From: Procambarus clarkii
Lineage: Eukaryota; Arthropoda; Malacostraca; Decapoda; Cambaridae
DNA: 64,000 nt
Reading direction: 5' to 3'
Assembly: GCF_040958095.1 (NCBI RefSeq)
Contig: NC_091173.1
Coordinates: 21,602,533 to 21,666,532 of the forward strand
Shown: positions 53,005 through 62,881 of the stretch, in pieces
Position numbering within the stretch: the first letter of the stretch is position 1
Layout: each line of letters starts with the position of its first letter
Made by a program: the position numbers and the translations under genes
Notes under the pieces: model-generated
The model's input: the letters and a program-made list of their open reading frames with translations, nothing else
What the model was told of the DNA's origin: nothing
The model's database searches: none

Positions 53005-56000
53005 TTACAGGGCGCTGGACGCGTCAGGCAGCACCTGGACATAGCACCCCGGCTCCGCGTAACTAAAGACGTTGATGTAGCCGCAGCGAGCCGTGTGGTA
53101 GACGGTGTCGTAGGGCTCTGAGCTACCATCCACACCGTTGCAGTGTGGCACCTGTAGAGGTCAGGTGGTTATGGAGAGGTCAAACGCACGGAATCAAGGG
53201 GGGTAGTAAAATGAGGTCAGATCAGCCAGCTACAAATAAAGATATTATATATATTAAACATAACTACACACACACGTTATAGTTGATACGTTATAGTTAG
53301 GTAAGTGAGTTTTGTGTGTTCAAAGAGTCACACCTGTGACTATCACGGGGAAAAGATCAACTGACTCAAGAACAGATCATACGAGGTGAAAAGTCCGGAT
53401 GAACACGGTCTACACCTCACCATACATGGCAGGTAAAGTTAAAGGGGCTTGGAATGGGAAGGTAACTGAACGAAGGAGAGGGACCTGGACGAAGGAGAGG
53501 GACCTGGACGAAGGAGAGGGACGTGGACAAAGGAAACATACCAGGGGAGGAAATATTGGAGGCAAACCCATAGAGAAGGGAGTTGCAGCACAGGTCTATT
53601 AATGGCTCAAGCAGAGCCCAAAAGCTGGAGTTAGCCCACCGCAAGAACAATTACCAAAGTATAGCTAGGTTAATACAGCTACGTAGATCCATAGGGTCGA
53701 GTACAGACCTGGTCGACGTCAGGTTCCAACCCTGATGATGTCTGAGAAAGGTAGGACTTTAAGTGGAACCAGCCCAGGTCCGTCTCCGCGCAGTCCATAA
53801 TCATGTCCACCATCCAGTAGTGTTCTCCGAACCTATAGGCACAAAGAAGTTTTTTTTATAACAAAATCAGTCGTTTCATCTTTTTCCCTCATGGGTTAGA
53901 TATAGGGACGGAGTTTGAGTCAAGAGAAATGAATGATAAACAAGTTCTGGCGAATGGTATGACCAGAGAGTACCTGCTGCTCTTTATTACAAGTCTTCTG
54001 GTCGTCCACCAATTTGGACAAGAGGGGGACCTTGAGATTTTTTTTACTCGTGTTCAACAATATTGATCATCTGACAGGGCCTGTGTGTTCCTATGTCCAC
54101 TCTGAAAACTTCGCCAGTGACAAGTTTACTTAATTCGATAAATTAAGTAAACTACCCAATAAAAAACTAATTGATGAACCAGTTACAGAGTTTGCTAACA
54201 TGTACAATTTCAAAATAAGCTCAGGAACTAAATCTTTTATTAGTTATCCTAACCGAATTTGTTATCAAGTTACAAGTGGGCAGTAGTCTAATTACGGTAG
54301 TGTGGGTCATGTTACAGTGACCATGAACTAGATCAGTAACTTGGGGGATGGGGAGCTTACTGTGTGTGTACTACCTACACTTCCCAAACTTGAGATACTT
54401 GGCCAGGATTTTTGGTAATATGACATCTTTAAACATTTTTCTGAACAACAGAGATAAAAAAAAATTGAAAATTTTCACACTCAATTACAATTTCATCTTC
54501 GTATCTCATTGTACACCCCTGCCTATTCACTGTACACCCTGCCTATTCACTGTACACCCTCTCTATTCACTGTACACCATCTCTATTCACTGTACACCCC
54601 TGGTTACACACTGCCCGCGCTGGTAACACAATGTACATCCTGGTTACTCACTGCACACACCATGGCTGTACTGTACATCGTAGCTACTCATTGTACATTG
54701 TGGTGACTCACGTGTTGAGTTCTTGGTACTCCGGAGCGCTGGGGTTGTTGGTGGTCCAGACAAGGGGAGTGCCGAAGGCCTGCACACCGTTGTAGTTACC
54801 CTGACCTTCCTGGGCACCGTACCAGTCCAGTTTGGTGTCGCCTTGCCGCCAAGCGTTGTATTTGTCGTAGTGCTCGTTTGTGCCCAGTTTGTTGACGGTG
54901 ATGTCCAGCGAACAGGGGTCCGACTCTGCGTCAGGCTTGCAGTCTGTGGGTGTAGACGGGTAGTGGTGATGGTGGACGGGTAATGGTGATGGTGGTGGGA
55001 GGGTTGTGGTGGTGGTAGGGTTGTGGAGGTGGTAGGGTGGGGTGAGTGGTAGTGGTTGTGTGCCTATAGCCTATCTTAATATATTCCTCGCTTAGAATTG
55101 TTCATATGGTTCTTACTTTGACCAGTCTTGTGTATGTTGCTGTCATTGTCGACTTATGTGAGTGTCGCTAAGATTGTGCTGCCTATAATTGAAGACATTT
55201 ATTTATACAACAATATAAGATAGTTTCCTGTTCTTGTATTATATTAAAGTAATGAATAAATATTGAGGACATACAATGAGATGGAACCCGCGTCCCTGAC
55301 TACGCAGACGCACGCACTACTGGGTGTCCGAGATCTGTCACGCGGGTTCGATTCCATCCCGTCTATCGATTTCACTGTGTATCTAAGTACTGAGTTGTTC
55401 TCCAGCATCTTTCTTTCATCTCAAGTAAATTTCTTACTCACTTCTCTTACAATATGTCAGCCCATTAACTCACTAACGATTACTATCATTATTTGGGCGG
55501 CCAAATATTCCGGCACCGCTAGACACGGGAGGTGAGGCAGTGCTCCTAGCGCTCCCGCCCCGGTAGCGGTGACCAGCAGGGACAACACAGGATTAAGATT
55601 ATGAAGAGTAAGCACTTCGGTGTAGCAACAGCCACTTCCCTGGCACGTATGTCTCATCTGTACAACTTGGTAAGGTAATACAGTGTAGGTGTACTGATGA
55701 ACACTTGTGACCTGGGGTGTATACGTGTCCCCAGTGATCTGGGGTGTACATGCGTCCCCTGTGACCTGGGGTGTGTATGTGACAGTGTGTATGGGTGACC
55801 TGGGGCTCACCTGGGCGGTGATTAGTGTCGATGCCTCCGATGATGAACAGGTCCTGGCCAGGGTTGGTTTGCTTGTGAATGAAGATGACCGTCCTGACCT
55901 TGCCTCCGTAGGCAGGGGTGGTGGGCGCCTCTGTGGTGGACGTCGTTGTGGTGGACGTCGTTGTGGTGGACGTCGTTGTGGTGGACGTCGTTGTGGTGGA

Positions 56001-62000: not shown

Positions 62001-62881
62001 TCTCCGTACCCCCCCTGGTCTCCGTACCCCCCCCTGGTCTCCGTACCCCCCCTGGTCTCCGTATCCCCCCTGGTCTCCGTACCCCCCCCCCCTGGTCTCC
62101 GTACCCCCCCCCCCTGGTCTCCGTACCCCCCTGGTCTCCGTGCCTCACCTGACCCCCACGGCGTTGCAGCGCTGCACCATGTCGATGAACTGTAGCGTAG
62201 TGCCAGAGCGGGACTCGAGGCGGTAAGAGACCGGTTGGTACCTCTGCCACCAGGGGTACCCGCTATCCTCCAGGACCACGTGCTCCGCGGCCGGCGACAC
62301 CTGCACCAACACAACCTGCCCTTAGTAAATCAATTCTCACCACCACCATTTATGTTGCAAGCCTGTAAAGTAGCATGCAATCATTACATGTTGCTCGTGT
62401 GGCACCATCATAGCTACGACTGTCTATATTATGGCACCTGGACCATTAATACCCTGTACTCATGTCGCTAGTATGGAATATTGCCACCATCACAAAGTCT
62501 GGGGTTAGTGCCAGAACTCCGCTGTATACAGTCAGTGAAGGTGAAACATATTAATTAGAGATGGATTGCATTAGTGAGTGGGGGGAGGTGTGTGCAGGCT
62601 TACATTGTGGGGGGAAGGTGTGTGCTGGCTTACATTGTGGGGGAGGTGTTCTGGCTTACGTTGTGGGGGAGGTGTTGGGCCTTCTCGTTGGAGGCGTGGG
62701 AGGAAAATGACTGACCTGGACGGCGCAGAAGCCGGCGTCAGCCAGGAACCTCTCGCATTCCTCCGCCACGTCCGTCCATTTCCACTCGAAGAGTTGGACG
62801 ATGGTTTGGCGTCCGCCACAGGAGGGCGAGTCGTACCCCGACACTCCTCCCACTAACACCAACCCTGCCAACACCACCAAG
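53005..62881 (-). CDS. AMY: Alpha-amylase-like protein (GH13) lacking the catalytic nucleophile, with Thr linker and C-terminal domain
   Basis: Thirteen GT-AG exons in phase, about 735 aa: 62881-62716, 62300-62149, 60537-60380, 59329-59151, 58788-58650, 58440-58256, 57912-57703, 57458-57320, 56631-56491, 56047-55811, 54943-54712, 53832-53709, 53151-53005. The ATG may lie in a short upstream exon (acceptor at 62882) or at 62934. A signal peptide ([15 protein letters not shown]) precedes the barrel. Fold motifs are kept: '[12 protein letters not shown]', '[12 protein letters not shown]', 'RCNAVGVR', '[10 protein letters not shown]' and the Aamy_C domain '[15 protein letters not shown]'. Catalytic sites (human numbering): '[13 protein letters not shown]' replaces GFR(L/I)DASKHMWP, so D197 is Gly and H201 Tyr; 'VVINNM' has Asn for H101; '[10 protein letters not shown]' has Gln for H299; E233 ('YHEVLDLG'), D300 and chloride ligands R195, N298, R337 remain. 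Exon 10 encodes a TTSTT linker, then '[20 protein letters not shown]' opens a C-terminal domain like that of some mollusc and marine bacterial amylases. Confidence 0.9.
54505..54605. repeat. Short tandem repeat in amylase-like intron 11
   Basis: Four imperfect copies of a unit of about 20 bp ('ctattcactgtacacc'). Confidence 0.85.
55935..56043 (-). repeat. 15-bp coding repeat, Thr/Ser linker
   Basis: About seven copies of a 15-bp unit within exon 10 of the amylase-like gene encode the pentapeptide TTSTT. The multiple of three keeps the frame, so length variation between alleles would be tolerated. Confidence 0.9.
59052..59160 (-). repeat. Triplicated exon-4 end and splice donor in the amylase-like gene
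   Basis: The sequence 'tatgtctggcc(t/c)gag|gtgagtgtg', spanning the end of exon 4 and its donor, occurs three times: donors at 59150, 59112 and 59063, separated by G runs. Spacings are 38 and 49 bp, so use of the downstream donors would change the reading frame. Confidence 0.85.
59738..59878. repeat. (TA)n microsatellite
   Basis: Over 60 TA units with one 'ataataaat' break near 59842. It sits beside the large inverted repeat at 59907-60025 in amylase-like intron 3. Confidence 0.97.
59907..60025. repeat. Large inverted repeat (about 56-bp arms)
   Basis: The left arm (59907-59963, containing 'gataaacgcgttttcggctt') is the reverse complement of the right arm (59969-60025, containing 'aagccgaaaacgcgtttatc') with a 5-nt centre and only about one mismatch. 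Together with the (TA)n tract it may be the end of a dispersed element. Confidence 0.9.
60300..60395 (-). repeat. 48-bp tandem duplication carrying the exon-3 splice donor of the amylase-like gene
   Basis: Two complete 48-bp units and part of a third contain 'ctgtgtccctctgttgacg|gtgagttc'. Donors lie at 60379 and 60331. The 48-bp spacing is 16 codons and the intervening sequence is open, so either donor gives an intact protein. Confidence 0.85.
60655..61080 (+). mobile_element. LINE 3' fragment in amylase-like intron 2
   Basis: Plus-strand frames read '[20 protein letters not shown]', '[20 protein letters not shown]', and after a frameshift '[20 protein letters not shown]', the order expected after the RT core of a non-LTR retrotransposon. 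It is antisense to the amylase-like gene and of a different family from the LINEs at 1 and 49060. Confidence 0.8.
61885..62142. repeat. Minisatellite 'cctggtctccgtaccccc' in amylase-like intron 2
   Basis: About thirteen units of 18-22 bp with variable C runs. The array starts 6 nt after the exon-2 donor (62148), so it directly abuts the splice site. Confidence 0.92.

Follow-up and report, generated by a model that had tools for sequence, protein, structure and literature searches.

A probable secreted pseudoenzyme among the alpha-amylase paralogues of the crayfish Procambarus clarkii

Introduction

Can an animal alpha-amylase gene lose its catalytic centre and still be kept as a gene? The question is raised by an amylase-like gene on the minus strand (62881..53005) of a 64-kb stretch of the Procambarus clarkii genome, hereafter the window, which corresponds to C24:21602533-21666532 of an assembly of 4,027,284,227 bases in 2,308 contigs. 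Based on alignments to animal and bacterial relatives, comparisons with paralogues of the same genome, codon models and simulations of neutral decay, we propose that the gene encodes a secreted paralogue of the chloride-dependent animal alpha-amylases (GH13_24) that has lost catalysis and whose fold has been kept by selection, a reading to which we assign a probability of roughly 0.7.

Glycosidase folds are reused without catalysis in the GH18 chitinase-like proteins and in the GH13 proteins 4F2hc and rBAT, all of which belong to other subfamilies, 4F2hc and rBAT being membrane transporter subunits. Among crustacean amylases, the shrimp enzyme Lv-Amy is classed as GH13_24, and the same report gives Litopenaeus vannamei six amylase genes, three of them with a low-complexity region, stresses the conserved catalytic domains and reads the expansion of crustacean amylase genes as one that keeps these domains highly conserved (PMC12798967). 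Further sources describe nine introns in an L. vannamei amylase gene (PMC3096672), name the residues expected for catalysis and for calcium and chloride binding in a lobster amylase (PMC8533441) and suspect some bilaterian sequences of another subfamily, GH13_1, to be inactive (PMC7003070). In the open-access literature, represented mostly by titles and abstract openings, we found no description of an animal GH13_24 amylase without the nucleophile.

Loss of the catalytic centre

The predicted product was aligned with four animal amylases and with the 80 best of 184 confirmed bacterial relatives. In human numbering, and with residue roles that we take to be the accepted ones, all 84 relatives carry H, D, A, H and H at positions 101, 197, 198, 201 and 299. 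On the bacterial side this set of relatives leans towards active forms, because three of the six search motifs contain H101, D197 with H201, or H299. The window gene has N, G, S, Y and Q at these positions, i.e. changes spread over three separate exons. Within the catalytic triad D197/E233/D300 the nucleophile is replaced by Gly and E233 and D300 are kept; the subsite -1 histidines, H101, H201 and H299, are all replaced. A first-pass annotation made from the same DNA had named D197G, H101N, H201Y and H299Q, together with VINNM and the neighbouring motifs, and had placed the ggc nucleophile codon within 59171-59179. The alignment bears out each of these and locates the codon at 59177-59175, and it completes the list with A198S, at a column likewise kept in every relative.

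Much of the surrounding architecture is retained. W58, W59, Y62, Q63, Y151, L162, L165 and K200 are present, as are the chloride ligands R195, N298 and R337 and the calcium ligands N100, R158 and D167, for which ion binding is predicted from sequence, and the eight cysteines common to human and Drosophila amylases. The survival of the general acid, D300, the chloride ligands, the WW pair, the Aamy_C domain and most calcium-ligand residues, also part of the first-pass annotation, is in agreement with the alignment and the Pfam scan. The GHGAGG loop is degenerate as had been stated, but its loss was ruled out as evidence of inactivation and is uninformative in this respect, because the loop is absent also from Tenebrio 1clv and PDB 26wd.

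Defining a near-invariant column as one identical in at least 83 of the 84 relatives yields 83 columns, 75 of which are kept in the window gene; the exceptions are H15, H101, D197, A198, H201, H299, P332 and N430. Eleven of the 83 columns belong to the active-centre set, and five of these 11 are lost (hypergeometric 7e-4, a value that is indicative only, since the set was drawn up after the replaced residues had been seen and includes A198). Outside the set 69 of 72 are kept. When the relatives are left out one at a time, each of the four animal enzymes loses between 0 and 3 near-invariant columns; the 80 bacterial sequences lose on average 0.475 and at most 11, and among them a centre column is lost 4 times. 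These comparisons support a concentration of the losses in the predicted active centre, with the fold kept.

Gene structure and domains

The gene comprises 13 exons, all of which were checked and join in phase, separated by 12 introns that are GT-AG in 12 of 12 cases, and the frame closes with TAA at 53007-53005 (Table 1). The coding sequence of 2,208 bases is without lesion, and the G+C content at third codon positions (GC3) is 0.80 versus 0.43 for the G+C content of the introns. The 13 in-phase exons without a stop reported in the first-pass annotation were confirmed by this check of exons, introns and phases; its model is specified further in that the gene occupies the minus strand and that the first exon begins at a splice acceptor, leaving the start codon a candidate.

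From this first acceptor the product counts 735 residues, starting with a hydrophobic, signal-like segment that is followed by the alpha-amylase barrel, domain C, a Thr-rich linker and a second C-terminal domain. Two start-exon candidates inside the window are weak and were set aside. A better one, with the sequence MRTLG and the donor GTAAGT, precedes the first acceptor by 2,872 bases and lies outside the window. This candidate signal-peptide exon was counted in favour of the proposed reading; an in-frame ATG at 62925 is an alternative start.

By homology over domains A, B and C, the gene encodes an animal-type alpha-amylase. The closest structure in the PDB is Drosophila Amy (8or6; E 1.2e-131, product residues 4-483), PF00128 matches with 31.8 bits (cut-off 22), and Aamy_C (PF02806) reaches 25.8 bits (cut-off 21.2) when the piece is scanned alone and is not reported in the whole-protein scan at E 0.001. 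The product shares domains A, B and C, E233, D300, the ion ligands and the WW pair with the Drosophila (8or6), Tenebrio (1clv) and human (3blk) amylases, to which it is about 47-48% identical over 452-463 aligned positions, and differs from them in the replaced D197, A198 and subsite -1 histidines and in the extra C-terminal domain. The latter, about 200 residues following the (TTTTS)n linker, matches nothing in the PDB at E 10, and its single Pfam match, to DUF3843 (E 0.11), falls below cut-off and was rejected. Aamy_C had been recognised correctly in the first-pass annotation, in which this second C-terminal domain went unmentioned.

A tandem repeat with a 15-bp unit (55932-56043) encodes the linker. 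Exons 3 and 4 each have a tandem duplication running into the 3' end (60298-60409 and 59093-59167, respectively), so that exon end and splice donor recur within the intron, where they could supply alternative donors. A second amylase gene in the window was sought by tblastn with the product, which matched its own exons only, all other matches having E of at least 0.4.

Table 1. Exons of the amylase-like gene and codons replaced in its predicted active centre (window positions).
Feature	Position	Strand	Basis
Exon 1 of the model: putative signal peptide end, amylase domain start	62716..62881	-	acceptor, donor, phase
Exon 2: W58, W59, Y62, Q63 kept	62149..62300	-	splicing, alignment
Exon 3: VINNM; N100 kept, H101 replaced	60380..60537	-	splicing, alignment
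Codon AAC: Asn for H101	60510..60512	-	alignment
Exon 4: nucleophile-region motif; D197, A198, H201 replaced	59151..59329	-	splicing, alignment
Codon GGC: Gly for nucleophile D197	59175..59177	-	alignment
Codon AGC: Ser for A198	59172..59174	-	alignment
Codon TAT: Tyr for H201	59163..59165	-	alignment
Exon 5: YHEVLD, general acid E233 kept	58650..58788	-	splicing, alignment
Exon 6: N298 and D300 kept, H299 replaced, GHGAGG loop degenerate	58256..58440	-	splicing, alignment
Codon CAA: Gln for H299	58307..58309	-	alignment
Exon 7: R337 kept; P332D in common with paralogue C26b	57703..57912	-	splicing, alignment
Exon 8: domain C start	57320..57458	-	splicing, Pfam scan
Exon 9: domain C (PF02806)	56491..56631	-	splicing, Pfam scan
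Exon 10: (TTTTS)n linker, start of extra C-terminal domain	55811..56047	-	splicing
Exon 11: extra C-terminal domain	54712..54943	-	splicing; related exons at C26b, C59a, C59b
Exon 12: extra C-terminal domain	53709..53832	-	splicing, genome search
Exon 13: extra C-terminal domain, stop TAA	53005..53151	-	splicing, genome search

Paralogues in the same genome

The genome was searched with Drosophila amylase and with the window gene itself. Classical amylase genes are located on contigs C26 (5.46 Mb), C186 and C60, and loci with the architecture of the window gene are C26b (C26, 24.45-24.53 Mb) and the inverted pair C59a/C59b. The extra C-terminal domain matched the window gene, C26b, C59a and C59b only (22 candidates scored), and the 56 best candidates that were scored include no further close copy of the window gene. 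At the amylase loci read, the window gene among them, D197 is retained in 7 of 8, H101 in 5 of 7 and H299 in 4 of 5; C60 copies of identical sequence account for three of the loci in the D197 count and for two in the H101 count. We note that these C60 exons, whose translations are the same at about 4.2-4.3 Mb and about 26.1 Mb, may represent a recent or an assembly duplication.

C26b is the nearest paralogue, with 70% identity to the window gene over 266 residues, followed by C59a and C59b with 57% (the comparisons with C26b and the C59 copies span 261-266 residues). It keeps H101, D197, A198, H201 and E233. Exons 2 and 6 could not be located in this gene and may be hidden by runs of N at its locus. 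C59a and C59b keep H101, D197, A198, H201, E233, H299 and D300 and agree with the window gene in phase at 12 of 13 exons; the exception is exon 7, which an extra intron divides in both copies. All three resemble the window gene in the linker and the extra C-terminal domain and differ from it in the readable centre residues, which are replaced in the window gene. No candidate start exon was detected for C59a and C59b either within the 1.1-1.4 kb examined upstream, hence a missing nearby start exon is not a sign of decay. The two copies (C59:21310501-21320500 and 21325501-21335500) are 98.9% identical over 438 residues in exons 1-9 and lie about 7 kb apart. A classical paralogue, C26a (C26:5459501-5469500), reads VFNQM, i.e. 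Gln for H101, and keeps D197, H201, E233, H299 and D300.

Near-invariant columns are lost at 2 of 59 readable positions in C26b, 5 of 82 in each of C59a and C59b and 3 of 79 in C26a; among readable centre columns, C26b, C59a and C59b lose none and C26a one. Both losses of C26b, P332D and N430S, are in common with the window gene, and since this sister copy is intact they are unrelated to the loss of catalysis and were excluded from the active-site changes. H15Q of the window gene differs from C26b as well. With H299, which is not readable in C26b, counted as lost on the window branch, five of the six window-only losses are in the centre (9e-5).

Selection, decay and other alternatives

The gene is probably kept by selection, as judged from codon models and simulations. 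In a three-taxon codon model of the window gene, C26b and C59a (344 codons, 43 of them without C59a), the ratio of nonsynonymous to synonymous change (omega, dN/dS) on the window branch is 0.061, and omega = 1 is rejected with twice the log-likelihood difference (2dlnL) at 23.8. A four-taxon fit rejects omega = 1 as well (2dlnL 21.2 with free ratios, 36.4 with two ratios), the three-taxon fit being preferred because several branch lengths and one omega were at bounds in the larger one.

The alternative that survives best, although we consider it unlikely, is a gene in the course of becoming a pseudogene, whose use was lost recently and whose centre has drifted with the frame still unbroken. 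It is consistent with an excess of own changes in the window lineage, 39 versus 12 in C26b among 301 sites (p 2e-4), i.e. the protein has changed faster than its sister. It is also consistent with a tree of the window gene, four animal and 16 bacterial relatives, in which the terminal branch of the window gene, 0.70, is the longest of the five animal sequences (0.23-0.38 for the others); the placement of the gene outside human plus insects in this tree (support 76) is probably a long-branch effect. Drift is opposed by the retention of near-invariant columns outside the centre and by neutral simulations begun from the present sequence, under 14 settings of 4,000 runs each. In none of the settings did a single run (0 of 4,000) combine at least 4 centre changes with unbroken frame and splice sites. 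Frame and splice sites were intact in at most 1.1% of runs already at 2% divergence, whereas at least 4 centre changes became common only later, with 19-20% of runs at 10% divergence and 65-66% at 20%. Neutral decay of the window gene is accordingly disfavoured at the level of simulated sequence.

Several observations nevertheless weigh against a selected pseudoenzyme. Synonymous divergence (dS) is saturated, the window branch carrying about 2.4 neutral changes per site, and omega is imprecise for this reason; the branch also includes time before the loss, hence the purifying selection may partly or wholly predate it, as the pseudogene alternative would have it. Omega of the window branch does not differ significantly from that of the others (lnL -2888.80 with one ratio, -2888.37 with two, 2dlnL 0.9). 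Occasional change of near-invariant residues elsewhere is seen in 26wd and in the bacterial set, and a changed histidine alone is no sign of inactivity, because C26a has lost H101 alone. The start exon is unproven, a donor as good as the GTAAGT candidate appearing in 43 of 100 same-length Markov-shuffled sequences, and the case as a whole is built on genomic sequence.

The first-pass annotation had proposed a secreted pseudoenzyme, with sugar binding, recognition or an inhibitor decoy as candidate roles, rather than a decaying gene. This view is partly supported, in that the loss focuses on the centre with the fold kept and neutral drift is disfavoured. The dN/dS estimate that it had called for rejects omega = 1 on this branch, within the limits set by saturation and pre-loss time. 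Its wording of a loss limited to the active centre goes too far: concentration is evident (five of the eight lost columns), but H15Q and the surplus of own changes are at odds with strict limitation.

That the product is still an enzyme of weak or altered activity appears very improbable. E233, D300, R195 and K200 would be available to it, but the nucleophile is Gly, its neighbour Ser and all three subsite -1 histidines are replaced, and human pancreatic amylase is reported to lose several orders of magnitude of activity when its nucleophile is removed; judged by these residues, the product is almost certainly without amylase activity. An error in the sequence or its assembly, or a gene model that joins exons wrongly, would be given some weight by the low-complexity and tandem-duplicated stretches adjoining exons 3 and 4 and by the runs of N at C26b, but is scarcely credible given five changes over three exons in an otherwise lesion-free coding sequence, the lack of another close copy among the candidates scored and the matching exon phases of the intact C59a and C59b.

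Other features of the window

An open frame of 797 residues at 29695-32088 (-) has a long Thr/Pro-rich repeat, mucin-like by eye, and no Pfam match. A leucine-rich-repeat open frame lies at 25668-26018 (+; LRR_8, 30.6 bits), reverse-transcriptase fragments (PF00078) at 20365-21045 (-) and 49876-50379 (-), and a retroelement-like frame, judged by eye, at 60572-60883 (+) in intron 2 of the amylase gene. ARAGORN called a tRNA-Thr (cgt) at 8820-8893 (+), and Rfam gave no match within the window.

Discussion

The gene combines an unbroken frame, behind a candidate start codon, with the loss of a catalytic residue, and on these features of its sequence we class the product as a putative pseudoenzyme. 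Without D197, a covalent glycosyl-enzyme intermediate would not form, hence starch would presumably not be hydrolysed. The kept platform of stacking aromatics, W58, W59, Y62 and Y151, together with the extra domain, could instead bind alpha-glucans or a partner. The likeliest role would be that of a non-cutting glucan binder or modulator beside active amylases in gut fluid, by analogy with the inactive GH28 proteins that contribute to pectin digestion in beetles (PMC6549527). As in those leaf-beetle polygalacturonases, an inactive member would here occur in an expanded arthropod digestive glycosidase family; GH28 is another family and fold, however, and the beetle role was shown by silencing, whereas the window gene is known from its DNA. 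Binding of glucans in particular is a tentative assignment that leans on this analogy. Somewhat more speculative is the idea that a branch of crustacean-type amylases has turned into a secreted carbohydrate-binding protein (a sensor, decoy or amylase helper), with all of subsite -1 dismantled, the glucan platform and the extra domain retained and a regulatory or recognition role for this dead family member. A function in immune recognition or as an inhibitor decoy would be a further possibility.

In conclusion, if the proposed pseudoenzyme is real, the expansion of crustacean amylases would also have yielded a non-enzyme. A single genome would then offer a natural contrast between a dead copy and copies that keep the catalytic residues, through which the function of a digestive pseudoenzyme could be approached, and amylase gene counts can overstate digestive capacity.

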